This document shows, piece by piece, positions 41,232 to 59,894 of a stretch of 64,000 bases of DNA. A program made the translations under genes and the position numbers. The stretch is from Peribacillus frigoritolerans. GTDB lineage: Bacteria > Bacillota > Bacilli > Bacillales > DSM-1321. Under the pieces are notes generated by a model that was not told where the DNA came from, made no database searches, and saw nothing but the letters and a program-made list of their open reading frames with translations. How positions within the stretch are numbered: position 1 is the first letter of the stretch; each line of letters opens with the position of its first letter. The stretch is from contig NZ_KV440950.1 of assembly GCF_001636405.1 (NCBI RefSeq), forward strand, positions 1,201,712-1,265,711, read 5' to 3'.

Positions 41232-41660
41232 TCAGTAAAAAAGTTTTGTTTGAAGAATGTCCAGGGCACGGTCAATCTCCGCTAAATCGTCCTTTGATGC
41301 ATGTTGCAGCCGGCTTTGAAAACGGGATTCCACGATTGCAAAAGCCTCTTTCATCATCATTTCCCCTTCTTTGGAGAGGCGGATGTATTGTTTCCGTCTA
41401 TCTTCCGAATCACTTATTTTTTCAATTAAATTCTTTTCGCTTAATTTTTTCAGTTCACGGCTCGTGTTAGGCATGGAGATATGATGACAGTCACTGATTT
41501 CACTTGGTGTGACAGGCTGACTGACGGTTATATATTCAAGGATTTTATATTGTACCGGCGTGATGGAATCGGATTTGGCGTTTTGTGTCAATTCGTGTGT
41601 CACTTGATGTACGGAAGTTGTAAATGTGACCATTTTTTCAAAAAGAGCTTTTTTGTCCAT
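41232..41660 (-). CDS. MarR-family transcriptional regulator
   Basis: A 142-aa winged-helix repressor. SITPVQYKILEYITVSQPVT, PSEISDCHHISMPNTSREL (recognition helix, about residues 51-69) and LIEKISDSEDRRKQYIRLS (wing with the conserved D-x-R-x-x) define the family. The longer open frame is rejected because GAGAGGTGAAAGTT precedes this ATG. Divergent from the flavodoxin-fold oxidoreductase gene, with paired operator-like sequences between; probably represses that gene and itself in answer to quinones or phenolics. Confidence 0.93.
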   Translation of the reverse strand: MDKKALFEKMVTFTTSVHQVTHELTQNAKSDSITPVQYKILEYITVSQPVTPSEISDCHHISMPNTSRELKKLSEKNLIEKISDSEDRRKQYIRLSKEGEMMMKEAFAIVESRFQSRLQHASKDDLAEIDRALDILQTKLFY

Positions 41661-41711
41661 AACTTTCACCTCTCTACTTGAGAAGATATCAAAAATATTA
41701 TCAAAATACAA

Positions 41712-43757: not shown

Positions 43758-44456
43758 TCATTTTCCTTTCTCGCGGAACTCCTTGGGCGTGATTCCCTCT
43801 ATCTTCCGGAATAAAGTGCTGAAATAATGCTGGCTATTGAAACCCGATTTTTCAGCGACGTCTGATATGCTCCAGCTGGTGTTATTGGTCAAGGCCCTTT
43901 TTGCGGCCTTTATTCTATAGTGCATTAAATATTCCGAAAACGAAGTGCCGACTTCTTCATGGAATTTCCTGCTTAAATAAGTCGGATTGGTATGCACTTC
44001 ACGGGCGATGTCCGAAAGGGAGAGTTTTTCGGCATAGTTTTCATGAATGAAAGAAAGCGAATGGTGAATGAGTGTTGAATAGTTATGGGAAGATACCCTT
44101 TTGTCATACTTGGCCAGGACTTTATGCAAATCACTTTCTATTACAGGTTTCGTTAAATAATCAACCACGCCTATCCTGATGGATTGCTGGGCATAATCGA
44201 AGCTTTGATGGGCGGTCACCATGATGATTTCGACTTCTTTGTTCAGCGCCCTTAGGTCTTCACCAAATTCAAGGCCCGATCGCCCCGGCAGATTAATATC
44301 CAGGAAAGCGAGGTTGATTTTATGATTTTGGTTGAGGGTCAGTGCCTGACAGGCATCAGCAGCTTTGTGAAATTTCCAAAAAGGGTAAATGGACTGAATC
44401 ATATATTCCATTTGTTCAAGGACCAATGGTTCGTCATCAACTAATAATACATTCAT
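43758..44456 (-). CDS. AraC-type response regulator (YesN-like)
   Basis: A 232-aa regulator: receiver domain with acidic Asp7/Asp8, phospho-acceptor Asp53 in FLDINLPGRSG, Thr81 and Lys103 in YLTKP; then an AraC C-terminal domain with two HTHs (LSLSDIAREVHTNPTYLSRK and WSISDVAEKSGFNSQHYFST, ending in FRKIEGITPKEFRE). It overlaps the kinase gene by 4 bases. AraC-type DNA-binding domains usually bind direct repeats about two helical turns apart beside the -35 region, which is exactly the arrangement found upstream of three units in this locus. Confidence 0.94.
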   Translation of the reverse strand: MNVLLVDDEPLVLEQMEYMIQSIYPFWKFHKAADACQALTLNQNHKINLAFLDINLPGRSGLEFGEDLRALNKEVEIIMVTAHQSFDYAQQSIRIGVVDYLTKPVIESDLHKVLAKYDKRVSSHNYSTLIHHSLSFIHENYAEKLSLSDIAREVHTNPTYLSRKFHEEVGTSFSEYLMHYRIKAAKRALTNNTSWSISDVAEKSGFNSQHYFSTLFRKIEGITPKEFREKGK

Positions 44457-45217
44457 TCCTCCGCCTCCTCCATTTTCCTATCAAAAACCAGCGGCCATGA
44501 TACCTCTACCTTTGTTCCCGATTCATTGGAAGCTATATGCAATTGTGCACGGTCATTGAAATACAAATATAAACGTTTTTGGATATTATCGAGGCCATGG
44601 CCGCCATCGTCCGTAACGGAAGATTCATTTCCCATCAATCCATTGTCCGCCACTTCCAGATACACCATTTGTGATTCCAGATAGAACCGGATATGCAGCA
44701 GGGCTTCACCCACTTTTTTTTCCAACCCGTGTTTAAATGAATTCTCCACCAAGGTCTGGAGAATAAAGGGCGGGACAAGTGCGGTTGATAACGGTTCCGG
44801 GCACTCCATATCAATCTTGAGCCGATCACCGAAGCGAAGGGTCTGGATGTCGAGATAATGCTGGGTATACTGGATTTCCTGGGAAAGGGGGATCAATGGT
44901 TCCGATGCTTTATACTTGAATTTCAGGAATTGCGAAAAAGCCTCTAAGGCCCGTATCAATTCTGCCGTCCTGTTCAGGCGGGCCAAGCCCAGAATGACAT
45001 TCAGTGTATTAAACAAAAAGTGCGGCTGGATCTGCTGGTTCAATTTATTATATTGTGCTTCTTGCAGTGCTTGCTCCAGGCGGATCTCCTTGTTTTTATT
45101 TTCAAGAAGATCGATCCTTTTCTCGAATATGAATAGAAATAAAAGAGCGATAGCTCCCATGATGGGAGCTAAAATGAAGAGCATGATAATTAACGTGAAT
45201 CCCTCGTAACTTAGCAT
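44453..45217 (-). CDS. LytS/YesM-type sensor histidine kinase without sensor domain
   Basis: A 254-aa kinase. One hydrophobic stretch (residues about 8-32) is followed by a short coiled coil (EKRIDLLENKNKEIRLEQAL), the phospho-acceptor motif QQIQPHFLFNTLN with His66, and a HATPase domain with LVENSFKHGLEKK (N box) and DDGGHGLDNIQKR (G box). There is no extracytoplasmic loop, HAMP, PAS or GAF domain. Signal input must come from the membrane segment or a partner protein, such as the cotranscribed symporter. Confidence 0.92.
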   Translation of the reverse strand: MLSYEGFTLIIMLFILAPIMGAIALLFLFIFEKRIDLLENKNKEIRLEQALQEAQYNKLNQQIQPHFLFNTLNVILGLARLNRTAELIRALEAFSQFLKFKYKASEPLIPLSQEIQYTQHYLDIQTLRFGDRLKIDMECPEPLSTALVPPFILQTLVENSFKHGLEKKVGEALLHIRFYLESQMVYLEVADNGLMGNESSVTDDGGHGLDNIQKRLYLYFNDRAQLHIASNESGTKVEVSWPLVFDRKMEEAEE

Positions 45218-45305: not shown

Positions 45306-46295
45306 TTAAGACACAATGTGACAAGCCACTTGATGGTTTTGTGCCGATCGTTTCAGTTCGGGCAGCTGTGTTTTGCAGATATCCTGTACAAACGGGCACC
45401 GTGTATGGAAGCGGCAGCCGTTTGGAGGGTCGATGGGTGACGGGACATCACCCGTCAATAGGATCCGTTCTCTTTCATGTACAGGATTCGGTACTGGGAT
45501 GGCCGATAGCAATGCCCTTGTATATGGATGCTGCGGCTGTTCGAAAATGGACTTTTTATCGGCTATTTCGACTATTTTTCCGAGATACATGACCATCACC
45601 CGATCCGAGATATGTCTGACCACACCTAAATCATGCGAAATGAAAAGAAAGGTAAGGTCGAACTGGCGCTGCAAGGATTTTAATAAATTCAGCACTTGCG
45701 CTTGAATGGAGACATCCAGTGCAGATACAGCTTCGTCACATATGATCAATTTGGGATCCACGGCCAGAGCCCGCGCAATCCCGATCCGCTGTCTTTGGCC
45801 GCCGCTGAATTCATGCGGGTATCTTTCCATGGATTCAGGTCTCAGCCCGACATGTCCCAATAATTCTTCAATCCGGCTCTTCCGGTTTTCTTTAGGGACT
45901 ACATTTTGGATCGCCAAAGCTTCCCCGAGAATTTTGCCGATCGTCTGTCTTGGGTTGAGGGAGGCAAAGGGGTCTTGAAAAATAACCTGCAGATCCTTCC
46001 TGGTACGCCGCATTTCTTTTTTGCCTAAACTCAGTAAATCCCTATCCTGAAAGTGAATGCTCCCGCTCGTCGGTTCATCCAATCGAAGGATGGCCCTTCC
46101 GGTAGTCGATTTCCCGCAGCCGGATTCGCCGACGATGCTTAAGGTTTCACCCTGTTTGATATCGAAGGTAATGTCATCAACGGCTTTTACATGATTGATG
46201 GTCCTTCCGAAAAATCCTCCCTTGATCGGAAAATATTGCTTCAATTGATCCACTTTAAGTAGAACCTTTTTCTCTGCAGCTGGTACACCCATCAT
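45306..46295 (-). CDS. Opp/Dpp-type ABC transporter ATP-binding protein (F subunit)
   Basis: A 329-aa ATPase. Walker A is [16 protein letters not shown], the signature is [17 protein letters not shown], Walker B is [17 protein letters not shown]. The C-terminal oligopeptide-type extension ends with [18 protein letters not shown], whose cysteines belong to the iron-sulfur-like cluster seen in DppD/OppF proteins. The start overlaps the stop of the preceding gene by one base. Last gene of the importer operon. Confidence 0.95.
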
Positions 46296-47317
46296 TAAAT
46301 CCCCACCTTTTCTTGAGCGTCATATGCCTTCTCCCATTGGGGGGTGAACATCCAGCAGCTGACCTCCGTACTTGGGCCGATGGCCTGGAGATCCGGTACG
46401 GCTTGTTCACAAATGCCTTTCGCATGTGGACAGCGGGGAGCGAAGCTGCATCCCTTGGGCATGTTGTAAGGACTTGGAACGGTCCCTGGAATTGTGGTCA
46501 GTTCTTCCTGGTCCATGTCCAGACGGGGAAGGGAGTTCAATAAACCAATGGTGTAAGGATGTTTAGGATTTGTGAATATTTCCTTGGCCAAGGTATATTC
46601 AACGATTTTCCCTGCGTACATGACAGCGACCCGATCACAGGTTTCGTATACGACACCCAAATCATGTGTAATCAAAATGACAGCCGTCCCGAAATCCTTT
46701 TGCAGCGTCTTGATCAGTTCGAGGATTTGGGCTTGGATCGTCACATCCAGTGCTGTTGTAGGTTCATCGGCTATTAAAACCTCAGGGTGGCAGGCAAGTG
46801 CCATGGCAATCATGACCCTTTGCCTCATTCCGCCGCTTAGCTCATGCGGCTCCTGTTTTGCCCTCTTTTCAGGTGAAGGGATCCCGACGAGCCGAAGCAT
46901 GTCGACGGCTTTATCCCATGCTTCCTTTTTTCCCAGCTTTTGATGGAGCCGGATCGCTTCCGCAATTTGCTCGCCCGCTGAATATACGGGATTCAATGAC
47001 GTCATCGGCTCCTGAAAAATCATCGAAATTTCATTCCCGCGTATGGACCGCATCTGTTTTTCAGACTTCGTAAGCAGATCTTCCCCTTTAAAAAGGATGC
47101 TGCCGCCGGCAATCTTGCCGGGTGGCGATGGAATGAGCCTTAACAATGAGAGCGATGTTATGCTTTTCCCGCTTCCCGACTCCCCGACGATTCCAAGCGT
47201 TTCCCCTTTATTGAGGGAGAAACTGATCCCATTGACTGCTTTACTCGTTCCTTCATCAGTGAAAAAGTGGGTCTGCAGGTTTTTTACCTCCAGTATTTTA
47301 TCAGCATCCTGATTCAT
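46295..47317 (-). CDS. Opp/Dpp-type ABC transporter ATP-binding protein (D subunit)
   Basis: A 340-aa ATPase. Walker A is [17 protein letters not shown], the signature is [17 protein letters not shown], Walker B is [16 protein letters not shown], and the C-terminal [17 protein letters not shown] carries the conserved cysteines. Three consecutive ATGs are possible; the third is best placed after AAGGAGGT, which lies just beyond the upstream permease stop. Pairs with the F subunit to energise import. Confidence 0.95.
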
Positions 47318-47329
47318 CATCATACCTCC

Positions 47330-48250
47330 TTAGTTCAAGTCTATTCTTTTGTTAAAGTACCGATAGAGGACATCCACTGCCAAGTTCATGAATACGAAGA
47401 TGACGGAAGCGATGAGGACCCCGCCTTGGACCATCGGCAAATCCCTCGTCCTGATTGCATCGACTATCAATCTTCCAAGTCCATTGATGGCAAAAACGGA
47501 CTCTGTCAATACCGTGCCGCCAAGGAGTGCACCGAACTGGAGGCCAACGACGGTAATGACGGGGATGAGTGCATTTTTCAGGCCGTGTTTATAAATGATG
47601 ATATATTCTTTCAATCCCTTGGCTCTCGCGGTCCGGATATAGTCCTGGCGAACGACTTCAAGCATGCTCGACCTGGTCATCCTGGCAACGATGGCCGCTC
47701 CGCCGGCCCCGAGGGTTATGGCTGGTAGAATCATGTGGCTGAAGGTTCCCCAACCTGAAACCGGAAACAAATGAAGGTTCACGGAAAAGAAGTAGATAAG
47801 CATGAGGCCCAGCCAAAAACTAGGTAACGAGATTCCCAATAAAGCAACGATCATGATGGAAATGTCAGCTGCCGAGTATTGCTTGGTGGCCGAGATGATT
47901 CCTGCGATCATTCCAAGCACAACGGTTATGAATATGCTGGCAAGTGCCAGTTCAAGGGTGATGGGCAAGCGGACCATGATTTCGTCCAAAACAGGGCGGC
48001 TGCTGCGGAGTGATTCCCCAAAGTCACCTTGAACGGCATGAAGGACATAGTCAACATACTGATAGAGGATTGGACGATCCAAGCCAAGCTCATGCCGCAG
48101 CGATTCAATCGTTTCTTTAGTCGCTCCTTCACCTGCAAGCAGTGTTGCCGGATCTCCCGGGACCATTTGCATGATGAGGAAAACAACAAGGCTTACTCCC
48201 AGTAATACCGGTATCGTTTGAAGTACCCGCCGGATAATGAATACGAACAT
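47330..48250 (-). CDS. Opp/Dpp-type ABC transporter permease (B subunit)
   Basis: A 306-aa, six-helix permease. IIRRVLQTIPVLLGVSLVVF is the characteristic OppB/DppB N-terminus, LGLDRPILYQYVDYVLHAVQ the conserved periplasmic piece, and RTARAKGLKEYIIIYKHGLK (EAA loop) contacts the ATPases. AAGGAGGAGA precedes the ATG; 12 bases separate it from the upstream C-subunit gene. Confidence 0.95.
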   Translation of the reverse strand: MFVFIIRRVLQTIPVLLGVSLVVFLIMQMVPGDPATLLAGEGATKETIESLRHELGLDRPILYQYVDYVLHAVQGDFGESLRSSRPVLDEIMVRLPITLELALASIFITVVLGMIAGIISATKQYSAADISIMIVALLGISLPSFWLGLMLIYFFSVNLHLFPVSGWGTFSHMILPAITLGAGGAAIVARMTRSSMLEVVRQDYIRTARAKGLKEYIIIYKHGLKNALIPVITVVGLQFGALLGGTVLTESVFAINGLGRLIVDAIRTRDLPMVQGGVLIASVIFVFMNLAVDVLYRYFNKRIDLN

Positions 48251-48262
48251 TTTCTCTCCTCC

Positions 48263-49165
48263 TTATTTTTTCATTCTTGGATCCAGGGCATCTCTAAGTC
48301 CGTCCCCGAAGATGTTGAAACCAAGTACCAGTGTTGATATCGCTATCCCTGGAAACAATGCGATGTGGGGGGCACTGAACAAATAATCCCGTCCGCTGCT
48401 CAGCATCGCTCCCCATTCTGGTGAAGGCGGCTGGGCTCCCAGTCCAAGGAATGACAATCCGGCTGCCGACAGAATGGCCGTTGCCAGACGTAATGTAGCT
48501 TGTACGATGACGGGTGATAGAATATTCGGAAAAATATGTTTGCATATGATCGTGAAGTCAGTCGCTCCCAATGCACGAATGGCATCGATATATTCCAGCT
48601 TCCTGACTGACAGTGTGGAACCGCGTACAATCCGGGCAAACATCGGTATCGAAAAGACTCCGACCGCCACCATAACATTGATTAAACTCGGACCAAGGGC
48701 ACTAATGATCGCAAGAGCAAGCAGTATTCCCGGGAAAGCCAGCAGAACATCGACAATCCTCATAATGACGGTATCGATCCATTTTCCGTAATAACCAGCT
48801 GCTAACCCGAGGAGTATACCAATGAACGCCCCGAAGAAAACAGAGACAAACCCAACCGTTAATGAAAGCCGTGTTCCATACAACAATCTGCTTAAAATAT
48901 CCCTTCCCTTATCATCCGTACCCATCAAATGTTCGGCTGATGGAGGCTGGAGTTTGTTGACCAAATCAATTTCATAGGGATCCTGCGGTGAGATCAAAGG
49001 GGCAAAGATAGCCAATAAAATATAAAAAAGTACGATGTACCCGCCTACCAATGCCAATTTATTTCGCTTGAATTTTTTATAAAAGGCTTTCCAGTGTCTT
49101 AGTTTCGGAGATTTTCTTTCTTTTACATTCAATTCGGTATTATTGATGACGACCTCTGGCTTCAT
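48263..49165 (-). CDS. Opp/Dpp-type ABC transporter permease (C subunit)
   Basis: A 300-aa, six-helix permease and first gene of the importer operon. FKRNKLALVGGYIVLFYILL is the N-terminal helix after a basic cytoplasmic tail; PSAEHLMGTDDKGRDILSRL is diagnostic of OppC/DppC; REYIDAIRALGATDFTIICK-like EAA loop (here KLEYIDAIRALGATDF). AAAGGAGG stands before this ATG; the longer open frame is not used. Transcribed divergently from the first binding-protein gene. Confidence 0.95.
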   Translation of the reverse strand: MKPEVVINNTELNVKERKSPKLRHWKAFYKKFKRNKLALVGGYIVLFYILLAIFAPLISPQDPYEIDLVNKLQPPSAEHLMGTDDKGRDILSRLLYGTRLSLTVGFVSVFFGAFIGILLGLAAGYYGKWIDTVIMRIVDVLLAFPGILLALAIISALGPSLINVMVAVGVFSIPMFARIVRGSTLSVRKLEYIDAIRALGATDFTIICKHIFPNILSPVIVQATLRLATAILSAAGLSFLGLGAQPPSPEWGAMLSSGRDYLFSAPHIALFPGIAISTLVLGFNIFGDGLRDALDPRMKK

Positions 49166-49213
49166 TGGATTTCCTCCTTTTCTTTCATTCAATTTATTCA
49201 AAAAAAGGATTGA

Positions 49214-49299
49214 AGTAAATATGATGCGGAAAAGCAGTAAAGATAATTAAAAAAAGAGTAAAGATTCTGAAAATATAAAATTCGGTTTTTTTTTATAAT
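49214..49299 (+). promoter_or_regulatory. Activator-type promoter P1 with 21-bp-spaced direct repeats
   Basis: AGTAAAGAT at 49236-49244 and again at 49257-49265 (21 bases apart), then 28 bases, then TATAAT at 49294. A poorer copy, AGTAAATAT, lies at 49214. No -35 box is visible at the proper distance. The same layout, base for base in spacing, occurs before the second binding protein and before the amidohydrolase trio. The likely binder is the AraC-type response regulator of this locus. Confidence 0.8.
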
Positions 49300-49375
49300 T
49301 TACAGTAAGCCCGATGTACTCATAGCTGTAAGTTACTTGGAGAAACAAAGGCAGGTTGAAAAGGGAGGAAATAGA

Positions 49376-50932
49376 ATGAGAAAAGGTATGATTGGGTTGC
49401 TTTTTGCTTCTTTATTGGGCATTTCATCCGTTTTATCAGGGTGTGCATCAGAAGAAACCGGCAGTAAGGAAACAGTAGAAAAAGCGAAAGAAGGAGGTAC
49501 GCTGATCGTCGCGCGCTTATCTGACGCGACCACACTTGACCCCCATTTCATAACAGACATTCCATCTGCAAACGTCGTTTATGAAAAGGTTTATCAAACA
49601 TTGGTCGTTCCTGACAAGAACATGGATCCTAAACCGCTGCTCGCAAAAGAGTGGAAACAACTGGATGATGTCACTTGGGAGTTTAAATTGCAGGAGGGAG
49701 TCAAATTCCATGATGGAGCTCCATTCAATGCCGAAGCGGTGAAAACCAATTTCGACAGGATACTGGATCCGGCAACAGCTTCTCCGCAGGCTGGTAAATT
49801 GGAAATGATCAAGGAAATTAAAGCGATTGACGAAACGACCGTACAATTCAAGCTGAAATATCCTTATGCTCCGCTGTTATCGATTTTAGTGAGTAATGAA
49901 GGAAGCATCATCAGCCCTAAAGCGATTAAGGAAAATAGTGACAAACTCGGGCAAAACCCCGTTGGGACAGGTCCATTCGTTTTTAAATCGTGGAAGCCTG
50001 GTGAAGAAATCGCCCTTTCGAAAAACAAGGACTATTGGGGGGATAAGCCTAAGATTGATGGGGTGGTATTCAAGGTGGTCCCTGAAGATGCCACGAGGAT
50101 TGCGATGATTGAAACGGGTGAAGCGCATGTGACCGATCAAGTGCCAGTGACGGAGATTGATAGGATCGAAGCGTCGGGCACGATGGATTTATATCGCACG
50201 GAGGGACTTGCCGTTGAATACTTAAGCTTCAATGTTAAGAAAAAGCCCTTTGATGATGTAAGGGTCCGTAAGGCGGTCGCTCATGCCATCGAGGTCGATT
50301 CCATCATCAAAGGGGTTTATAACGATGTCGGCACGAGGGCAAATTCAACAATGAGCCCAAAGGTGTTTGGTTATGATCCGGATATAAAAGGCTATGACTA
50401 TGATATTAATGAATCGAAGAAGCTCTTGACTGAAGCGGGGGTCAAGGATGGTTTGGAGTTTACCCTGACGACGAGTGACCGTAAGGAAAGGATCAATATG
50501 GCCGAGGTGATTCAATCCCAGTTAAAAGGAATTGGAATTAAGGTCAAGATTCAAGTCCTTGAGTATGGGGCTTACATTGACGCGACAGCCAAGGGCGAGC
50601 ACCAGGTATCGATAGGCGGCTGGGGCAATGCTACCGGGGATGGAGATTATAATCAATTTAACCTTTTCAATAGCAAATCCCAAGGTGCTGCGGGAAATAG
50701 TTCATTCTATAGCAATCCGGAAGTGGATAAATTGATTGAAAATGCACGTAAAGAATCGGATGGCGATAAACGTAAGGAACTATATTCGAAGGCACAGGCA
50801 ATTGAAAGAGAAGAAGTTCCATATGTTCCTATCCGTAACTATGAACACTTGGCCGTATATGGCGGGTCAGTTAAAGGACTTTGGCTGAATCCGGCAAATT
50901 ATTTAATGCTTGATGACGTAACCGTGAAGTAG
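49376..50932 (+). CDS. Extracellular substrate-binding lipoprotein 1 (SBP_bac_5, peptide/nickel type)
   Basis: A 518-aa lipoprotein: signal MRKGMIGLLFASLLGISS, lipobox VLSGC, then the family 5 binding protein (LDPHFITDIPSANVVYEKVY, then WEFKLQEGVKFHDGAPFNAE and VGTGPFVFKSWKPGEEIAL). The longer open frame is rejected because GGGAGGAAATAGA precedes this ATG. It is divergent from the Opp-type permease genes and most likely delivers substrate to them. A second binding protein of the same type lies 3 kb downstream. Despite the family name, these proteins can bind opines, heterocycles and other small molecules. Confidence 0.95.
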   Translation: MRKGMIGLLFASLLGISSVLSGCASEETGSKETVEKAKEGGTLIVARLSDATTLDPHFITDIPSANVVYEKVYQTLVVPDKNMDPKPLLAKEWKQLDDVTWEFKLQEGVKFHDGAPFNAEAVKTNFDRILDPATASPQAGKLEMIKEIKAIDETTVQFKLKYPYAPLLSILVSNEGSIISPKAIKENSDKLGQNPVGTGPFVFKSWKPGEEIALSKNKDYWGDKPKIDGVVFKVVPEDATRIAMIETGEAHVTDQVPVTEIDRIEASGTMDLYRTEGLAVEYLSFNVKKKPFDDVRVRKAVAHAIEVDSIIKGVYNDVGTRANSTMSPKVFGYDPDIKGYDYDINESKKLLTEAGVKDGLEFTLTTSDRKERINMAEVIQSQLKGIGIKVKIQVLEYGAYIDATAKGEHQVSIGGWGNATGDGDYNQFNLFNSKSQGAAGNSSFYSNPEVDKLIENARKESDGDKRKELYSKAQAIEREEVPYVPIRNYEHLAVYGGSVKGLWLNPANYLMLDDVTVK

Positions 50933-50951
50933 GAATTCATCACAAAAGGAA

Positions 50952-50975
50952 GGCAGCATAAGGATGTTATGCTGT
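50952..50975 (+). terminator. Intercistronic hairpin
   Basis: Stem GGCAGCATAA / TTATGCTGTC with a 4-base loop between the binding protein and the first amidohydrolase. The tail is not T-rich enough for a full terminator; it may stabilise the upstream message or reduce read-through. Confidence 0.6.
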
Positions 50976-50997
50976 CTTCTCAATTAGGAGGGAAAGT

Positions 50998-52506
50998 ATG
51001 ATAGATTTACTGCTAATCCATGGGACCGTCATTACCATGGATCAAAACAGGAGAGTTCTGCAAGATGGCGCCGTCGCCATACATCAAGGAAGGGTTTTAG
51101 CTGTAGATGCGACCGAAAAACTTAAATGGAAGTATGAGGCAGTAAAAGTCATCGATTGCAGCCATCAGTGCATATTGCCCGGATTGATAGATGTTCATGG
51201 GCATGGGGGACATTCCATGTTCAAAACCATTGCCATGGAGAATATTGATTTTTGGATGCCGATCATGACGAATACGTACAAGCATTTTGTAACGGATGAG
51301 TTTTGGTATTACGAAGGAAAGCTATCCGCCCTTGAGAGATTGAAGGCTGGCGTGACGACTGGGGTGAGCGTGTTAGGATCCATGCCGCGGTCCGATGAAC
51401 CGATTTTCGCCATCAATCATGCAAAAGCATATGCCGAAGTGGGAATCAGGGAAGTGGTATGCACGGGTCCTTGCAATCCTCCATGGCCCCATTCATTCAG
51501 CCGATGGATCGATGGAAAGAGAGTGGTAAAGGAAGTTACCTATGAAGAAGTATTACAGGGGGCGGAAGCGGTAATCGAGGCGCTGAACCATGCAAATGAG
51601 GACCGTACGAGAGCCTTCATTACACCATTTGTCATCGTTACATCGGTGGATCCCTCCAATCCGACATCTCCTGACAGGCTTTATGGGCTTACTGATCATG
51701 ACCTGTATCAAGCGAAGAAAATAAGGGAGATTGCCAGGAAATATAACACACGCATTCACTCAGATGCCTTTGGCGGGATGATTCATTTAGCGATACAGGA
51801 TAAGGAAAATGCCCTATTGGGTCCGGATGTCCATTTACAGCACTGTCGGGGCATTTCCTTCGATGAGGCAAGAATACTGGCAGAAACAGGTACCAACGTC
51901 AGTGCATCACCTGGATTTGGCCAGGTTCATGCCCGTACCCCGATAACTGAATTATTGGAAATGGGTGCAACTGTGGCAATCTCCACGGATGGGACGTCCC
52001 CTTCCACAAGTTTCGATATGTTTCAGGCAATGAGGAAAACACAGTTGGTTCACCAGGCCGCCCTTAGGGACTACTATTATTTACCGCCAGGCAAGCTGTT
52101 GGAAATGATCACGATAGATGCTGCGAAATGCATTGGCTGGGATGATGAAATAGGCTCCCTCGAGATCGGGAAAAAAGCGGATGTCATTACGGTCAATCTT
52201 CATCAGCCTCACCTGACCCCTGAATTCATGCATGTTCACCGGCTTGTATTTCAAGCTGTGGCGAATGATGTGGAGCATGTCATCGTGGATGGGAAATTGA
52301 TCATGGAAGGCAGGAATGTACGGACGGTCCATGAAAGTACAGTGCTTGATGAAGCGAATGAGGAGGCCTTTTCAACGATAAAGCGTGCAGGGCTCGAAAA
52401 GTATATGCAGCCGACTAAATATTTCTGGGGCCATGCCAGGGCTTATGTAGATGAAAAGCGATATGACGAACGCGAAGACGCTGCCGCGATGGTGAAAGGG
52501 GAATAA
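50998..52506 (+). CDS. Metal-dependent amidohydrolase (chlorohydrolase/deaminase type)
   Basis: A 502-aa subtype I/III amidohydrolase. The N-terminal beta-sandwich leads to the metal motif ILPGLIDVHGHGGHSM (HGH, about residues 66-72), a strand with RIHSDAFGGMIH, then VHLQHCRGIS (third His, near 280), and AISTDGTSPSTSFDM (metal Asp, near 328). The C-terminal IGSLEIGKKADVITVNL is the typical end of AtzB/TrzN/guanine-deaminase-like enzymes. TTAGGAGGGAAAGT precedes the ATG. It is one base from the next amidohydrolase, hence one operon. It would hydrolyse a C-N or C-Cl bond in a ring compound; the substrate is unknown. Confidence 0.9.
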   Translation: MIDLLLIHGTVITMDQNRRVLQDGAVAIHQGRVLAVDATEKLKWKYEAVKVIDCSHQCILPGLIDVHGHGGHSMFKTIAMENIDFWMPIMTNTYKHFVTDEFWYYEGKLSALERLKAGVTTGVSVLGSMPRSDEPIFAINHAKAYAEVGIREVVCTGPCNPPWPHSFSRWIDGKRVVKEVTYEEVLQGAEAVIEALNHANEDRTRAFITPFVIVTSVDPSNPTSPDRLYGLTDHDLYQAKKIREIARKYNTRIHSDAFGGMIHLAIQDKENALLGPDVHLQHCRGISFDEARILAETGTNVSASPGFGQVHARTPITELLEMGATVAISTDGTSPSTSFDMFQAMRKTQLVHQAALRDYYYLPPGKLLEMITIDAAKCIGWDDEIGSLEIGKKADVITVNLHQPHLTPEFMHVHRLVFQAVANDVEHVIVDGKLIMEGRNVRTVHESTVLDEANEEAFSTIKRAGLEKYMQPTKYFWGHARAYVDEKRYDEREDAAAMVKGE

Positions 52507-52507
52507 G

Positions 52508-54007
52508 ATGAAAACCAAACTTAAAGGAAGATATGTAATCGGGTATGACGGGTGCGATCATGTCATATTGGAAAACGCGGAGATCGTTTATGAAAAAGAC
52601 ACGATTTTGTATGTCGGAAAAAATTATCCAGAAGAAGTGGACGAGGTAATGGATGCCGGTAATGCGATTATCAGTCCCGGGTTCATAGATTTAAATGCAT
52701 TAGGGGACATTGACCATGATATTTTACATTTTGAAGCCGGTGCCGACAGACAGAAAAACCTTCTTTGGTCGGAGAATTATATAAAAAGCGGACATCCTGA
52801 ATTAATGACCAAGGAAGAAGAAGCGTTTAAATCACTATATGCTTATTCACAGCTCATACTGCATGGCGTGACGACGGCGATGCCCATTACTTCCGTCTTT
52901 TATAAAAGCTGGGCTGAAACCTATGATGAATTGGCAGCTGCCGCAGAGCATGCCGCTGGCTTGGGATTAAGGATTTACCTTGGCCCAAGTTTCCAATCAG
53001 GAATGAGAGCCGTCCAGCCTGACGGGAAAATCAAACTGCATTGGGATGAAAAAGCCGGTGAAGCGGGGTTACGGAAAGCGGTCGAGTTTGTGGAAAAGTT
53101 CGATGGAGCCCATGAAGGCATGGTCAGGGGGATGCTTGCTCCAGAACGAATTGAGTCTCAAACGGCCGATCAATTAAAACAGATTAAATATTACAGCGAA
53201 AAATTGAATGTACCCATAAAGCTTCATGCTGCACAAGGAAGCTTTGAATTCAGAACCATCTGGGAAGCCCATCATGTTACACCGATCAGATATTTGTATG
53301 ACCTTGGCTTTCTCGGTACAAGAACAGGGATCCCGCATGCCCACTTTATTTCAGGATACAGTAAAGCGAAATATGGCCAGGGTGATGACTTGGCGCTGCT
53401 TGCGGAAACGAATACAACGGTGATCCATTGCCCGCTGATCATCGGGAGGCATGGGGAGGCGTTAGAATCTTTTGCCAAATATAAACGGGCTGGGATCAAT
53501 ATAGCCCTTGGAACGGACACATTCCCTCCGGATATGTTCCAGAACGTCAGGACAGGCAGCATGCTCTCACGGCTGGCGGCAGGAGAAACGGAAGGCTCTG
53601 TCTATGCCGATTTCTTTCGGTCAGCCACACTGGATGCGGCCGCTTTTCTTGGCAGGAACGATCTAGGACGCATCGCTACGGGGGCCAAGGCGGATATCAT
53701 CGCGATTGACTTGGACGGTTTCCATATGGGGGTAATCGATGATCCGATTCGAACGATGTTCGCAAGCGGATCCGGGAGGGACGTTAAATTATCGATCATC
53801 AATGGAAAGGTGGTCATGAAGGATCAAATAATCCCCGATCTTGATTTAACGGAAATCAAATATAAGGGGCAGCTATATTTCAATAAGATGAGAAGAGGCT
53901 ATATGGAAAGGGATTATCAGGAGCTTTCCGAGAAAGAATTGTTTAAGCCATCATTCAAGGTCGTGGAATCGATAAGCGATACAGAAGCCATTTGTAAAAA
54001 CAAGTAA
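52508..54007 (+). CDS. Amidohydrolase-like protein lacking the first HxH metal motif
   Basis: A 499-aa protein of the chlorohydrolase/amidohydrolase type, one base after the preceding gene. The site where HxH is expected reads SPGFIDLNALGDIDHDILHF, so neither histidine of the usual pair is in place (though IDHD lies close by). The later ligands look present: PIKLHAAQGS, GIPHAHFISGY and ALGTDTFPPDMF. The C-terminal LGRIATGAKADIIAIDL is typical. It may use another metal site, act as a partner of its neighbour, or belong to a described subfamily with the same variation. Ribosome binding site GTGAAAGGGG overlaps the upstream gene. Confidence 0.88.
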   Translation: MKTKLKGRYVIGYDGCDHVILENAEIVYEKDTILYVGKNYPEEVDEVMDAGNAIISPGFIDLNALGDIDHDILHFEAGADRQKNLLWSENYIKSGHPELMTKEEEAFKSLYAYSQLILHGVTTAMPITSVFYKSWAETYDELAAAAEHAAGLGLRIYLGPSFQSGMRAVQPDGKIKLHWDEKAGEAGLRKAVEFVEKFDGAHEGMVRGMLAPERIESQTADQLKQIKYYSEKLNVPIKLHAAQGSFEFRTIWEAHHVTPIRYLYDLGFLGTRTGIPHAHFISGYSKAKYGQGDDLALLAETNTTVIHCPLIIGRHGEALESFAKYKRAGINIALGTDTFPPDMFQNVRTGSMLSRLAAGETEGSVYADFFRSATLDAAAFLGRNDLGRIATGAKADIIAIDLDGFHMGVIDDPIRTMFASGSGRDVKLSIINGKVVMKDQIIPDLDLTEIKYKGQLYFNKMRRGYMERDYQELSEKELFKPSFKVVESISDTEAICKNK

Positions 54008-54066
54008 AGAAAATGAAAAACATAGTAAAGATAATCGAAAAAAATAGTCAGAATATTTCCTATAAT
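54003..54066 (+). promoter_or_regulatory. Activator-type promoter P2 with 21-bp-spaced direct repeats
   Basis: AGTAAAGAA (54003) and AGTAAAGAT (54024) are 21 bases apart, followed by 28 bases and TATAAT at 54061, matching P1 and P3 exactly. A weaker third copy, AGTCAGAAT, is at 54046. The first repeat overlaps the stop codon of the upstream gene. Confidence 0.8.
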
Positions 54067-54107
54067 TAGATAAATGTTCAAAAAATGAAATTGGGAGGTA
54101 GAAGACC

Positions 54108-55673
54108 ATGGGGGTAAAACGTGGGGCAGGAAAGCTTTTTCTAGTCATGATCATGGCTATCATCATTACAGGCTGTTCTTCTAACAATGACGTAAGCACA
54201 ACAGAAAGTGATCCGAACAAAGCATCAAACGGAGGGGGTACATTGGTCATTGCCCGCTTATCCGATGCTGAGAACTTGGATCAGCAGTTCATGTCCACGA
54301 TTAACGCCGCTAGCGTCACTCACCATAAAATCTATGAAGGTCTTGTACAGCGGGATGAGAATAGTGAGATACAGCCAATGCTGGCAGAAAAATGGAAGCA
54401 AATAAATGACACTACCTGGGAATTCAAGCTTAGGGAAGATGTAAAGTTTCATGATGGCACGCCATTTAATGCAGAGGCGGTAAAGAAGACGTTTGATCGA
54501 CTATTGGATCCGGCGGTCGCTTCTCCCAGAGCGGTGGTATTCGATATGGTGAAAGAGGTGAAACCGGTTGATGAATTTACCGTGCAATTCATCCTGAAGG
54601 AACCTTTTTCCCCTCTCCTTTCCATATTGGCGAATCACGAAGGCGGAATCATCAGTCCGAAAACGATTGAAAAGTACGGCAAAAAGATTATCCAGGAACC
54701 GAATGGAACCGGCCCTTTCGCTTTTGATTCATGGTCCCCAGGCCAGGAAATCACATTGACGAAAAACGACAGCTATTGGGGAGACGAGCCAAAAGTGGAC
54801 AAGGTCATCTTCAAGGTCGTCCCGGAAGACTCCACGAGGATATCGATGATAGAAACCGGTGAAGCGCATATCGCCGAGCCGCTTCCTGTAGCGGTCATGG
54901 ACCAGGTGGAATCATCACCGGCAATGGATGTTTACCGCAGTGAAGGGTATGGTACCGAATATTTAGGCTTTAATGTCAATAATGAACCGTTCAATGATGA
55001 AAGGGTCCGTAAAGCCATTGCCCATGCCATTGAGATGGACTCGATTATCAAGGGTGTCTTCAATAATGTGGGAGTAAAGGCGAACTCCTTGATGGGCTCT
55101 AAAGTATTCGGGTACAACGAAGATCTCGAAGCCTATGATTACAACTTAAAGGAAGCGAAGAAACTGATGGCCGAAGCTGGATATTCAAAAGGCTTGGATG
55201 CGACCATCCTGACAATGGACAGTAAAGAAAGAGTCAACTTGGCTGAGGTCCTGCAATCCCAACTGAAAGGGATCGGGATTAATTTGAAAGTGCAGGTCAT
55301 GGAGTACGGTTCATTCGTGGAACAAGTGAATAAAGGACAATCGGAAATGTTCATCATCAGTTGGAGAAACGCGACCGGGGATGCTGATTATAATCAATAT
55401 AACCTTTTTCATACGGAATCACAGGGAGCGGCAGGTAACACATTCTTTTACAGCAATCAAAAGGTTGATCGTTTAATAGATGCAGCCAGGAAGGAAAAAG
55501 AAGAAGGGAAACGCAAAGAACTATACGCAGAGGCACAGGAAATCGAAATGGCTGACACCCCGTACATTCCTGTAAGGGTCATAGAAAATGTTGCTGCAGT
55601 AGCCAAAGAAGTAAAAGGATTTTCAATCAGCCCTTCAGGTTACCTGGAGATAAATGACGTAACGATCAAGTGA
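54108..55673 (+). CDS. Extracellular substrate-binding lipoprotein 2 (SBP_bac_5 type)
   Basis: A 521-aa lipoprotein paralogous to the 49.4-kb gene. Signal KLFLVMIMAIIITGCSS includes the lipobox IITGC. Shared family sequence: GGGTLVIARLSDAENLDQQF, WEFKLREDVKFHDGTPFNAE and GTGPFAFDSWSPGQEITL. It has its own activator-type promoter and no other transporter part, so it probably works with the same permease and widens the range of ligands. GGGAGGTAGAAGACC precedes the ATG. Confidence 0.94.
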   Translation: MGVKRGAGKLFLVMIMAIIITGCSSNNDVSTTESDPNKASNGGGTLVIARLSDAENLDQQFMSTINAASVTHHKIYEGLVQRDENSEIQPMLAEKWKQINDTTWEFKLREDVKFHDGTPFNAEAVKKTFDRLLDPAVASPRAVVFDMVKEVKPVDEFTVQFILKEPFSPLLSILANHEGGIISPKTIEKYGKKIIQEPNGTGPFAFDSWSPGQEITLTKNDSYWGDEPKVDKVIFKVVPEDSTRISMIETGEAHIAEPLPVAVMDQVESSPAMDVYRSEGYGTEYLGFNVNNEPFNDERVRKAIAHAIEMDSIIKGVFNNVGVKANSLMGSKVFGYNEDLEAYDYNLKEAKKLMAEAGYSKGLDATILTMDSKERVNLAEVLQSQLKGIGINLKVQVMEYGSFVEQVNKGQSEMFIISWRNATGDADYNQYNLFHTESQGAAGNTFFYSNQKVDRLIDAARKEKEEGKRKELYAEAQEIEMADTPYIPVRVIENVAAVAKEVKGFSISPSGYLEINDVTIK

Positions 55674-55740
55674 TGCAGTGTGTTGAGGAAAGGGGTTAGG
55701 AGTCCGAATGGGGGGAATGGATTATTCCTGTAATCCTCAT

Positions 55741-55949
55741 GGGAAGGGATTTGCGACACTCCTGCCGAATTACTGGCTGGCCGAGACCCCACAGGCGCAA
55801 ACGCCGAGGGCGGACCGCCCGCGGAAAAGCGAGTGCCTAGAGTGGAAATCAACGTCTACAAAAGAAAGACAGTCGATCTCTGGAATCAATTGAACGTTTC
55901 AAATACTGCAGGCAAACTGAGTTTCATCGAGTTGTTTTACAGTCTGAAA
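55741..55949 (+). repeat. Dispersed hairpin element, copy E
   Basis: It begins GGGATTTGCGACACTCCTGC and continues TGGCTGGCCGAGACCCCACA, GGACCGCCCGCGGAAAAGCG and GAGTGGAAATCAACG, and ends with the tail CTGCAGGCAAACTGAG...TTTCATCGAGTTG and ACAGTCTGAA. The most complete copy in the window; it separates the second binding protein from the amidohydrolase trio. Confidence 0.85.
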
Positions 55950-55990
55950 GGGTTCATCCATTAGGGTGAGCCTTTTTCTTTGGCACAATA

Positions 55991-56054
55991 AGTAAAAATA
56001 ACATAAAAACGAGTAAAAATACTGAAATTATTTGTTGATCTTTAAAACTATAAT
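55991..56054 (+). promoter_or_regulatory. Activator-type promoter P3 with 21-bp-spaced direct repeats
   Basis: AGTAAAAAT at 55991 and 56012 (21 bases apart), then 28 bases, then TATAAT at 56049. Same architecture as P1 and P2, with CTGAAATTAT after the second repeat resembling CTGAAAATAT in P1. Confidence 0.8.
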
Positions 56055-56096
56055 GAAAGTGATGCATAGTCAATCTGGAATGAAAGGGTGAGTGTA

Positions 56097-57344
56097 ATGT
56101 CTCAATCGTATTGGTTAACGAATGTCCGCTTGGAAAATGGTTTTACTTATAATGAAAATGAAACGATCACCGGCACTGAAACCGGCAATTACCACATCAA
56201 GATTGAAAGTGGGAAAATTTCTTCCATTTTATCGGAGAAGGAATCGATAGCGGATCAGGATCCGCAGCATGATGTTCACGGCCTTCTGATGGTTCCCTCG
56301 TTTAAGGAAATGCATATCCACATTGATAAAACGTACTATGGCGGTCCGTGGAAGGCTTGCATGCCTGCCATTAATGGCGTGAAAACCAGGATAGAGGAAG
56401 AGCAGGTCTTGCTGCCCGAATTATTGCCTACCGCTAAAGTCAGAGCAGAGAAAATGCTCGATTTATTATTGAACTTCGGATCTACCCATATACGTACACA
56501 TTGCAACATCGACCCCGTCATAGGACTGAAGAACTTGGAAGCGACCATTCAGGCACTGGAAGGCTATAAGGATAAATTGACGTATGAGATCGTCGCATTC
56601 CCACAGCATGGACTTTTACGCAGCGATTCCGTTCGGTTAATAAGGGAGGCAATGAAGAATGGGGCGAATCTGGTAGGAGGCGTGGACCCCGCCACCATTG
56701 ATGAAAACATAGAGCGGTCACTTGAAACGATCATGGATATCGCGGTTGAATCCAATTCCGATATCGATGTTCATTTACATGATCCGGATCACCTTGGCCT
56801 CTTCACCATGCAGCGACTTGCTTCACTTACGGAAGACGCAGGCTGGCAAGGAAGGGTCACGGTTAGCCACGCCAGCGGGTTGGCAGATCTTTCAGTCCCG
56901 GAGGCTACGGGCATAGCCGAAAGGTTTTCGGAAACAGGAATATCGATTACATCCACAGTGCCGATCTTCAGAACGATCCCCATCCCCCTGCTTCATGAAA
57001 AAGGGGTGAAAGTGGAATTGGGTAATGACAGCATCACTGATCATTGGACACCATTTGGCATCGGGGACAACCTGGAAAAGGCAGGTCGCCTTGCAGAGAG
57101 GTTTCGCATGATTGATGAACGTTCCTTAGCGAAAAGCCTGCAATTCATAACAGGAGGGAAGACCCCATTAAACCAAGACGGGGTCAAGGCATGGCCTAAT
57201 GTCGGGGATGAGGCGAATATCGTTTTGCTTGAAGCCAGCAGTTCAGCGGAAGCGGTGGCTAGAAGGGCGAAGCGTGCTGCTGTCATCTTCAGGGGCAATG
57301 TTGTTAGCGGATCCATTTCATCTTTTGAGACGACAGGTGTTTAA
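56097..57344 (+). CDS. Cytosine deaminase-like amidohydrolase, paralog 1
   Basis: A 415-aa CodA-type enzyme. Metal motif KEMHIHIDKTYYGGPW (HIH, about residues 70-72); THIRTHCNIDP in the next strand; DIDVHLHDPDHLG with a paired-His strand; VSHASGLADLS; and the catalytic Asp region VELGNDSITDHWTPFGIGDN. E. coli CodA has matching THVRTHVDV-like and GHDDVFDPW segments. The ATG in frame after GAAAGGG is used. First of three consecutive paralogs behind promoter P3. It should deaminate or hydrolyse a cyclic amidine or amide; the substrate is unknown. Confidence 0.88.
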   Translation: MSQSYWLTNVRLENGFTYNENETITGTETGNYHIKIESGKISSILSEKESIADQDPQHDVHGLLMVPSFKEMHIHIDKTYYGGPWKACMPAINGVKTRIEEEQVLLPELLPTAKVRAEKMLDLLLNFGSTHIRTHCNIDPVIGLKNLEATIQALEGYKDKLTYEIVAFPQHGLLRSDSVRLIREAMKNGANLVGGVDPATIDENIERSLETIMDIAVESNSDIDVHLHDPDHLGLFTMQRLASLTEDAGWQGRVTVSHASGLADLSVPEATGIAERFSETGISITSTVPIFRTIPIPLLHEKGVKVELGNDSITDHWTPFGIGDNLEKAGRLAERFRMIDERSLAKSLQFITGGKTPLNQDGVKAWPNVGDEANIVLLEASSSAEAVARRAKRAAVIFRGNVVSGSISSFETTGV

Positions 57345-57368
57345 TCTTTTAATAAAGAGAGTGATTGG

Positions 57369-58619
57369 ATGAATGAAGCATACTGGCTTACAAACGTTAC
57401 GCTTGATAGTGGATTTGTTTTTGAGAATGAACGAATTGATCGGACGAAAACAGCTACATACAACATGTATATAAAAAATGGGATCATAGAGGATTTGCAA
57501 TTGGCTTCAACTATGCCTTTGAAAACGGATGGTCCTGTTCACGACGCGAGAAAGCTGCTTGCACTTCCTCCTTTTAAAGAGATGCATAACCATCTGGACA
57601 AGACGTATTTAGGACTGCCATGGAAATCATGCACTCCGGTTCCGAACTTAATCGAACGCTTAAAATTAGAAGCAAAAGAGCTTGCAGAACTGGCTGAAAC
57701 TGGACAGCTCCGGGCTGAACGGATGCTTCAACTATTGTTAAGCGGCGGGGCAACGCATGTAAGGACGCATGTAAATATCGATCCATACATCGGAATGAAG
57801 AACTTGGAAGAGATTCAACGTGCCCTATATCGTTTCAAAGGGAAAATGACATACGAGATCGTGGCTTTCCCGCAGCACGGACTGCTAAGAACGAATTCAA
57901 AAGGGTTGATGAGACAAGCGATGAAAGAAGGGGCGTCCTTGGTGGGCGGCCTGGATCCTGGCGGGGTGGATAATAATATAGAAGCTTCCCTGTATGAAAT
58001 GGTCGATTTGGCTGTTGAATTTGATGCAGATATTGATATTCATATACATGATCCCGGTCACCTTGGTTTATATACGATCAAGAAACTGGCTTCTTTGATC
58101 GATGAAGCAGGATGGAAGAACAGAGCGGCCATCAGTCATGCTTTTGCACTTGGTGATGTTTCAATAGGAGAATCGAATGAACTGGCCAGTGAATTATCAA
58201 ACCTGGGGATAGCGATCATGTCTACAGTTCCGATCAACCGGGTCATGCCCCCGATTGATTCACTGCATGAGAAAGGTGTCCATGTTGCTCTCGGTTGCGA
58301 TGGCTTTTACGACTCCTGGTCCCCATTCGGTACTGGGGATATGCTGGAAAAGGCAGGCCGATTGGCTGAGAGGTACAACTGGAAGGACGAGTATGCATTG
58401 TCTCAATCGCTCCAATTCATTACGGGCGGAGTCAAGACATTGGACGATGAAGGAAATCGTTTATGGCCGAAAGCGGGAAATGACGCAACTATGGTTTTTG
58501 TGGATGCATCATGTGCTGCCGAGGCAATTGCCAGGAGATCGACGCGGGCTGCGGTCATGGTCGATGGAAACCTGGTATACGGCGGACTTGATCGCGAATT
58601 TGCCTTGAAGTCGAATTGA
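57369..58619 (+). CDS. Cytosine deaminase-like amidohydrolase, paralog 2
   Basis: A 416-aa CodA-type enzyme, 24 bases after paralog 1. Metal motif KEMHNHLDKTYLGLPW, then THVRTHVNIDPYIG, DIDIHIHDPGHLG, ISHAFALGDVS and VALGCDGFYDSWSPFGTGD. All expected ligands are kept; the residue before the catalytic Asp is Cys where the siblings have Asn. GAGAGTGATTGG precedes the ATG. Much sequence is shared with the flanking genes, so the trio arose by tandem duplication and then diverged. Confidence 0.88.
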   Translation: MNEAYWLTNVTLDSGFVFENERIDRTKTATYNMYIKNGIIEDLQLASTMPLKTDGPVHDARKLLALPPFKEMHNHLDKTYLGLPWKSCTPVPNLIERLKLEAKELAELAETGQLRAERMLQLLLSGGATHVRTHVNIDPYIGMKNLEEIQRALYRFKGKMTYEIVAFPQHGLLRTNSKGLMRQAMKEGASLVGGLDPGGVDNNIEASLYEMVDLAVEFDADIDIHIHDPGHLGLYTIKKLASLIDEAGWKNRAAISHAFALGDVSIGESNELASELSNLGIAIMSTVPINRVMPPIDSLHEKGVHVALGCDGFYDSWSPFGTGDMLEKAGRLAERYNWKDEYALSQSLQFITGGVKTLDDEGNRLWPKAGNDATMVFVDASCAAEAIARRSTRAAVMVDGNLVYGGLDREFALKSN

Positions 58620-58646
58620 AGATATGGTTCAAGAAGGGAGAAGATC

Positions 58647-59894
58647 ATGAATAGAATCTATTGGTTAAAGAATGTTCGTTTGGAATGTGGGTATCGGAAA
58701 GAGAATGAAAGAGTTACAGGAACGATCACCGGGTTATTTCATCTGTTGATGGAGGATGGCAGGATCACGAAGATTATCAAAGATGGGGAAGCCATACGTG
58801 ATGATTTACCAGTGGAAGATGCAAAAGGATTGCTGGCGGTACCATCCTTCATTGAAAAGCATGTCCATCTTGATAAGACACTGATGGGGGATGTTTGGAG
58901 AGCGTGCACTCCTTCTTCAAGTGTCATTGAACGCTTTGAAAATGAGAAGAGGGTTCTGCCTTCCATTGCAACAAGCACATGTAAACGTGCAGAATCTTTA
59001 CTGGAAATCCTGTTAGCTTCCGGATCTGCACATATACGGACTCATGTTGATATTTATCCGGAAGCGGGCTTGCAAAACTTAGAGCAAGTTCAGCAGGCGC
59101 TTGCTGGCTATTCCAATCGACTCAGTTCAGAAATCGTCGCATTTGCGCAGCACGGTTTGCTGCGGTCCGGCTCTGTCAAGCCTGTCAGGGAGGCATTGCG
59201 GAACGGAGCAGGAATCGTCGGGGCGGTGGATCCGGCCACAGTCGATAACAATATTGAAGCATCGCTCGTGCAATTGATGGATTTAGCAGTGGAAGCTAAT
59301 GCTGATGTGGACTTGCATTTACATGATCCCGGCCATCTGGGCACGTTCACCATGAAACGTTTGGCAGCTCTGACCAAGCAAGCGGGCTGGGAAGGAAGGG
59401 TGGCATTAAGCCATGCGTTCGGCATCGGGGACGTATCCAGGGAAGAAGCCTATGAACTGGCTGACATTCTTAGGGAGGCGGGGATTTCCATCGTCACCAG
59501 TGTCCCGATCAACAGGCAGATGCCCCCTGTTGATTTATTACATGAAAGAGGGGTTGAAGTATCAGTAGGAAATGATAATATCTTTGATGTATGGTCACCT
59601 CTTGGGAATGGTGACATCTTGGAGAGGGCAGGAAGGCTCGCAGAACGTTTCAAATGGATTGATGAAGTCTCGCTTTCCCGGACACTCGGATATATAACTG
59701 GCGGAAAAACCCCATTGGATGATAAGGGTAACCAGGTATGGCCGAAAGTTGGGGATGCCGGAAGTCTGGTGTTAATTGACGCAAGCTGTTCTGCAGAGGC
59801 AGTTGCCAGGCGTTCGGAACGTAAAGCGGTCATTTACAAGGGGAACTTGGTTTCCGGTTCACTATATAAACAAAAGCAGTCCATTGAACGGTAG
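58647..59894 (+). CDS. Cytosine deaminase-like amidohydrolase, paralog 3
   Basis: A 415-aa CodA-type enzyme, 27 bases after paralog 2. Metal motif IEKHVHLDKTLMGDVW, then AHIRTHVDIYPEAG, DVDLHLHDPGHLG, LSHAFGIGDVS and VSVGNDNIFDVWSPLGNGD. This last stretch is the closest of the three to E. coli CodA. GAAGGGAGAAGATC precedes the ATG. End of the trio; a hairpin with T run follows. Confidence 0.88.
   Translation: MNRIYWLKNVRLECGYRKENERVTGTITGLFHLLMEDGRITKIIKDGEAIRDDLPVEDAKGLLAVPSFIEKHVHLDKTLMGDVWRACTPSSSVIERFENEKRVLPSIATSTCKRAESLLEILLASGSAHIRTHVDIYPEAGLQNLEQVQQALAGYSNRLSSEIVAFAQHGLLRSGSVKPVREALRNGAGIVGAVDPATVDNNIEASLVQLMDLAVEANADVDLHLHDPGHLGTFTMKRLAALTKQAGWEGRVALSHAFGIGDVSREEAYELADILREAGISIVTSVPINRQMPPVDLLHERGVEVSVGNDNIFDVWSPLGNGDILERAGRLAERFKWIDEVSLSRTLGYITGGKTPLDDKGNQVWPKVGDAGSLVLIDASCSAEAVARRSERKAVIYKGNLVSGSLYKQKQSIER

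Follow-up and report, generated by a model that had tools for sequence, protein, structure and literature searches.

We analysed a 64,000-nucleotide stretch of the Peribacillus frigoritolerans genome (positions 1,201,712 to 1,265,711 of contig NZ_KV440950.1), referred to below as the window. It contains a cluster of amidohydrolase and transport genes whose three promoters, P1, P2 and P3, carry the same pair of direct repeats at a fixed distance from a TATAAT -10 hexamer, and it encodes a two-component system that is the probable user of these repeats.

On the minus strand the order of transcription is an oppC-oppB-oppD-oppF-like ABC transporter (45306-49201, named by reading the translations rather than by family search), a histidine kinase (44453-45217, PF06580), an AraC-type response regulator of 232 amino acids (43758-44456) and, directly downstream of the regulator, a divergent sodium/solute symporter-like membrane protein (42429-43754; PF00474 at 19.2 bits, below the cut-off of 22.8). 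The plus strand carries solute-binding protein 1 (SBP1, SBP_bac_5, 49376-50932) with two amidohydrolases (50998-54007; AH1 50998-52506, AH2 52508-54007), then solute-binding protein 2 (SBP2, SBP_bac_5, 54108-55673), and finally three PRK06846-type amidohydrolases, AH3 to AH5 (56088-59894), AH3 starting at either 56088 (GTG) or 56097 (ATG).

The regulator has the receiver domain, the AraC-type helix-turn-helix (HTH) domain and the adjacent kinase gene that characterize YesN/AraC-type response regulators; the two domains were assigned by Pfam, in line with an earlier sequence-only reading of this DNA. The motif GFNSQHYF in its second HTH is kept in 82 of 86 sequences. Pfam found no sensor domain in the kinase, His_kinase being the only domain detected, and its one hydrophobic N-terminal region spans residues 1-38. 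In a seeded set of 81 loci (the best 80 of 125, plus L086) the kinase gene adjoins the regulator in 80, the exception (L156) stopping at a contig edge. By the rule of our script the symporter-like gene adjoins it in 80 as well, with an overlap of a few bases in the remaining locus (L130). In the loci examined the conservation of the symporter-like protein is lower than that of the transporter genes, and this protein may be the sensor.

Operator letters and spacing at three promoters

The sequence-only reading had described pairs of AGTAAARAT-like 9-mers 21 bp apart (49236/49257, 54003/54024 and 55991/56012), each second repeat being followed by exactly 28 bp and a TATAAT at 49294, 54061 and 56049. 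We recovered every one of these positions and distances. The P1 operator (49236-49265, plus strand) lies between the divergent oppC and SBP1 genes and consists of AGTAAAGAT at 49236-49244 and again at 49257-49265, with the -10 of the SBP1 promoter at 49294-49299. The P2 operator (54003-54032, plus strand) begins over the stop codon of AH2, which its first repeat overlaps; it pairs AGTAAAGAA at 54003, the sole inexact 9-mer among the three promoters and one letter off, with AGTAAAGAT at 54024, and the -10 of the SBP2 promoter follows at 54061-54066. Upstream of AH3, the P3 operator (55991-56020, plus strand) has AGTAAAAAT at both 55991 and 56012, and the -10 of the amidohydrolase trio is at 56049-56054. 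As had also been claimed, none of the three has a -35 box: hexamers at 16-18 bp spacing mismatch TTGACA at at least four of six positions.

Column consensus by promoter class extended each repeat to a 17-bp half-site (AGTAAARATNNTGAAAA), two per operator. The A-box AGTAAARAT is present in all classes and is continued, near half-site positions 12-17, by a B-box of TGAAAA or TTAAAA that the sequence-only reading had not described and that is weaker in the second repeat of SBP2-class promoters. In each pair the promoter-proximal half-site extends to the -35 position. The operators thus show direct repeats about two turns apart (21-bp period), within the 15-17 bp and with the two boxes of AraC/XylS-type operators, and a proximal half-site abutting or overlapping a poor -35. 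Half-site length, repeat period and position relative to -35 together give the arrangement expected of an AraC-type activator.

The identical spacing had been held not to be due to chance, and the full layout agrees with this. Allowing up to five mismatches, the pair with TATAAT at 28 bp occurs three times in the window and in none of 60 order-2 Markov shuffles; at up to three mismatches it was absent from 60 runs of 64 kb of sequence with promoter composition. The pair alone at up to three mismatches stood out only slightly in the window (3 matches against 0.49 expected; 2 of 100 shuffles reached 3). At up to one mismatch the whole genome contains three forward matches, all of them P1 to P3, and no reverse match, compared with 0 and 1 for the control. 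Random occurrence across the genome, which would have told against an operator, was therefore not seen for the strict motif. A 21-bp unit resembling AGTAAAAGTGCGAAATTCACG is repeated in tandem elsewhere in the genome, near 370233, 1498106, 1564330, 1642457 and 3641869; the period that these arrays have in common with the operator is probably a coincidence.

Conservation in Peribacillus and across the order

The genus set comprised 36 genomes, 20 of which encode the regulator with at least 91% identity. In these 20 the layout is kept, with at most one mismatch, at the orthologous P1 and P3 promoters in every genome and at P2 in 15, so that the motif does stand upstream of orthologous genes, as the sequence-only reading had proposed to check. 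Over all 36 genomes there were 75 such matches. The locus accounts for 55; the remaining 20 are spread over other places (8 in genomes that lack the close ortholog) and, being fewer than the 35 of the reversed-pattern control, are within background. In the aligned promoters the fixed islands are the repeats and the -10. Invariant letters make up 17/18 of the repeats but 57/94 of the other positions at P1 (19 distinct Peribacillus sequences, excluding row L085, a P3 fragment), 16/18 against 31/60 at P2, and 17/18 against 27/97 of the other intergenic positions at P3.

Across the order we searched 397 genomes of 135 genera for AGTARARAT-N12-AGTAAARAT-N27..29-TATAAT at zero mismatches, without seeding on the regulator. 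The pattern occurred 24 times in 18 genomes, its reverse not once. Among the best candidates scored, the regulator was present at E <= 1e-60 in 49 of the 397 genomes, including all 18 that bear the pattern, and all 24 matches share a contig with the regulator and lie no more than 13 kb from it. In the 81 seeded loci a relaxed layout gave 134 matches, compared with 7, 8 and 7 in Markov controls, and 69 of 80 loci had a site outside the matched genes. By record title, the predicted regulon is present in more than ten Bacillales genera. The spacing of exactly 28 bp held at P1 to P3 and mostly elsewhere, although some classes of other genera have 27 or 29. A natural knock-out, AH1 without the regulator, was sought in the 397 genomes and none was found; AH1 (E <= 1e-170) occurs in 16, all with the regulator.

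Similar layouts, some of them weaker, were seen before genes that we named by eye as hydantoinase-like (L129, L135, L136, L160, L163), sugar-type binding-protein (L113, L115, L116, L118, L120) and Xaa-Pro-peptidase-like (L123, L130). These would enlarge the regulon.

A third A-box and a CodY-like box

A third A-box, AGTAAATAT, lies at 49214-49222 on the plus strand, 22 bp upstream of repeat 1 (49236) of P1. Position 49214, its first base, is the coordinate at which the sequence-only reading had begun its account, which made no mention of this box. Most divergent operators of Peribacillus, Gottfriedia, Paenibacillus and Neobacillus retain it. Among distinct sites, GTAAA stands 22 bp before repeat 1 in 24/25 of the SBP1 class, 8/8 of AH5, 6/10 of AH2 and 0/45 of SBP2. 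When 111 sites were sorted, 38 had both the third box and a divergent open reading frame, 59 had neither, 10 had the reading frame only and 4 the box only. The box mostly accompanies a divergent reading frame and was considered as a part of the divergent promoter, for which no good -10 could be seen by eye. In four loci (L106, L146, L156, L159) a second regulator gene of 68-69% identity is oriented divergently from an operator with this layout, a hint of autoregulation or of a paralogous circuit.

Two promoters additionally carry a match, absent from the description in the sequence-only reading, to the CodY consensus AATTTTCWGAAAATT (PMC5314169; here and below, published systems are compared through extracts of the papers cited). 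At P1 the CodY-like box (49261-49275, plus strand, 12/15) overlaps repeat 2 and the -35 position and is inseparable from the B-box of that repeat. At P2 the box AATAGTCAGAATATT, with core TCAGAATATT (54043-54057, plus strand, also 12/15), is directly upstream of the -10. Both have three mismatches; P3 scores 10/15, that is, five mismatches. SBP2-class promoters keep TCWGAATATT directly upstream of the -10, the centre being A or T about equally (25 TCTGA and 24 TCAGA among 59 windows passing a C/T-N-G filter). The sequence AGTCAGAATATT at P2 was considered as a third regulator site and rejected, because relatives keep TCWGAATATT and not AGTC.

The consensus was scored in 109 distinct sites, filtered to 27-29 bp spacing and TATAAT or TATTAT. 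It reached at least 12/15 in 67, with 4.6 expected, figures that overstate the excess because related sites are not independent. Among 105 palindromes of the same letters AATTTTCWGAAAATT came first for the SBP2 class and was tied with another palindrome for SBP1, where the box overlaps the repeat. Permuted versions did as well in 0/300 cases for SBP2, 0/300 for SBP1, 3/300 for AH2 and 11/300 for AH5. The genome has a codY gene, and at up to two mismatches the consensus occurs 102 times per strand (being palindromic, it is counted twice), the reversed pattern occurring 57 times. Among the matches listed, not one falls in the window, whose boxes have at least three mismatches. Six box-bearing stretches from elsewhere were inspected: one (L213) contains, judged by eye, a branched-chain amino acid transporter, and none of the remaining five is an obvious CodY target. 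With lower confidence than for the operator, these patterns suggest that CodY may repress some cluster promoters, the P2 class above all, through the box upstream of the -10 when nutrients are ample.

Candidate binder and comparison with known systems

We consider it probable that the linked two-component system uses the repeats as its operator and that the AraC-type response regulator activates P1, P2 and P3 as one regulon. The sequence-only reading had arrived at one regulon with an AraC-type operator, and the specificity of the strict motif and its conservation at orthologs support that view, with the encoded regulator as the likely binder. According to this model the kinase would phosphorylate the regulator, and two monomers would bind head-to-tail to the two 17-bp half-sites, on the same face of the DNA and two turns apart. 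The first HTH (HTH1) is predicted to read the A-box AGTAAARAT and the second (HTH2) the TGAAAA-like B-box. With the promoter-proximal half-site in place of the absent -35, the bound regulator could hold RNA polymerase at a good -10, and SBP1-AH1-AH2, SBP2 and AH3-AH5 would be switched on together.

We compared operator and regulator distances to see how the boxes covary with parts of the protein. Given the receiver domain, the A-box gave a partial correlation (r) of 0.60 with HTH1, 0.43 with the rest of the domain, 0.26 with HTH2 and -0.13 with the linker; for the B-box the values were 0.19 with HTH2 and 0.12 with HTH1. The register rules used here favour GT and AT positions, and an alignment with register errors had given an A-box/HTH1 partial r of 0.18. 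Low-scoring loci (L128, L147, L162, L165) were excluded, and loci without a candidate site were not entered.

Several observations weigh against the proposed operator and its assignment to the regulator. Over the whole genome the pair at up to three mismatches is not enriched (74 forward and 50 reverse matches; 77 and 101 for the reversed-pattern control). The loose pair without the -10 is thus genome background, and it is the complete layout that carries the claim. In Peribacillus, blastn failed to recover P2 from 2 of the 20 genomes (L083, L084), and in three the site is degenerate. Only 18 of the 49 regulator-positive genomes have the zero-mismatch pattern, and 11 of 80 loci gave no site in the relaxed scan. 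Nine of these 11 can be read as the 21/28 geometry with changed letters, by rules that reward such a reading, as in Sporosarcina L132 (AGTCAAAAT, 12 bp, TCACAAGAT, 28 bp, TATAAT). Shuffle controls run for three of the nine gave 0/100 (L114), 0/100 (L119) and 4/100 (L139). Neither the relaxed scan nor the changed-letter reading gave a convincing site in L147 or L165. Moreover the kinase, which does not bind DNA, covaries with the A-box at a partial r of 0.62, and with the kinase held fixed the HTH1 value falls to 0.34. We count the HTH1/A-box covariation as weak support because the kinase covaries equally; shared ancestry explains much of it.

Linkage and conservation would look the same if some other factor from the cluster or the host were the binder. 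That a different transcription factor binds the repeats would agree with the covariation of the kinase and with the presence of other regulator genes in the window, for example a MarR-like gene at 41232-41711 (named by eye), and the identity of the binder is itself inferred. It is nevertheless unlikely, since zero-mismatch matches occur solely in regulator-bearing genomes and within 13 kb of the regulator, and half-site length, repeat period and position suit the regulator's AraC fold. Very unlikely is that the repeats serve repression, the regulator blocking polymerase at the -35 position. The proximal half-site does overlap that position, but there is no -35 to block, so that transcription should depend on an activator, and regulators of the AraC type mostly activate from this position. 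Mere duplication or common descent without present function would be conceivable for P1 and P2, SBP1 and SBP2 being of one family, but deserves almost no weight because the three intergenic regions differ apart from the repeats and the -10, the genes behind P3 belong to another family, flanks drift while the repeat letters stay fixed, and other genera have comparable layouts, some weak, ahead of further gene types (named by eye).

Activation by the linked regulator thus stays the preferred reading, and the persistence of the layout in many related genera points to a single two-component regulator, encoded next to the genes, as the switch for an entire uptake-and-breakdown cluster. A wider and distinctly tentative extension, one possibility among others, is a split transporter-sensor circuit: the separate symporter-like protein would switch the sensor-less kinase, the regulator would activate all cluster promoters through the strict 21/28 operator, and CodY would repress some of them through the box between operator and -10. 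If so, about 60 bp would integrate signals from a nutrient outside the cell and from the nutrient state inside it. It is the CodY-like box and the possible split sensor that merit further study.

No description of this operator or regulon was found in the titles and abstract openings of the open-licence papers that literature searches listed. The architecture is of a known kind and well supported; as far as those papers go, the operator letters and the regulon are new. The present analysis adds the CodY-like box before the -10 in SBP2-class promoters and the third A-box, which most divergent operators have 22 bp further upstream. Judging from few papers, little seems to be settled about the DNA sequences that AraC-type response regulators recognise. 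The present work offers a concrete, strongly conserved operator, probably of one such regulator. It opens an uncharacterised amidohydrolase/transport cluster to direct tests of its regulator, promoters and effector, and it points to promoters at which a specific activator and CodY may be combined.

The proximal half-site of AraC overlaps the -35. Like the sites of AraC, XylS, MekR and MtlR, the operator consists of head-to-tail half-sites of two boxes; its period is that of XylS and MekR, whose half-site formulas sum to 21 bp by our calculation, those of AraC summing to 17 bp, and the MtlR site lies upstream of the -35 (PMC4514859). It differs in its letters and in that the regulator is a two-component response regulator with a receiver domain.

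XydR and CuaR of Clostridium/Ruminiclostridium are YesN/AraC-type response regulators encoded beside a kinase that raise the expression of linked genes (PMC3572039, PMC10384115). The regulator described here has the same receiver and AraC-type domains and the adjacent kinase gene. For XydR the extract mentions repeats common to two target regions, without a defined operator; CuaR has 538 amino acids and a solute-binding-protein co-sensor, in contrast to the 232 amino acids and symporter-like neighbour found here.

The CodY-like box has its likeness to the published consensus in TCWGAATATT, at a fixed place before the -10 of SBP2-class promoters in a host with codY, and differs from it in that the predicted boxes match at 12/15 in P1 and P2 and 10/15 in P3.

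The SLC5/STAC histidine kinases CbrA, CrbS and RpuS tie a symporter-family protein to a kinase/regulator pair (PMC9100948). Instead of a fusion of symporter and kinase through a STAC domain, the cluster has separate genes, a kinase with His_kinase only and a regulator of the AraC type. Here as well, a symporter-like protein is associated with a kinase/regulator pair.

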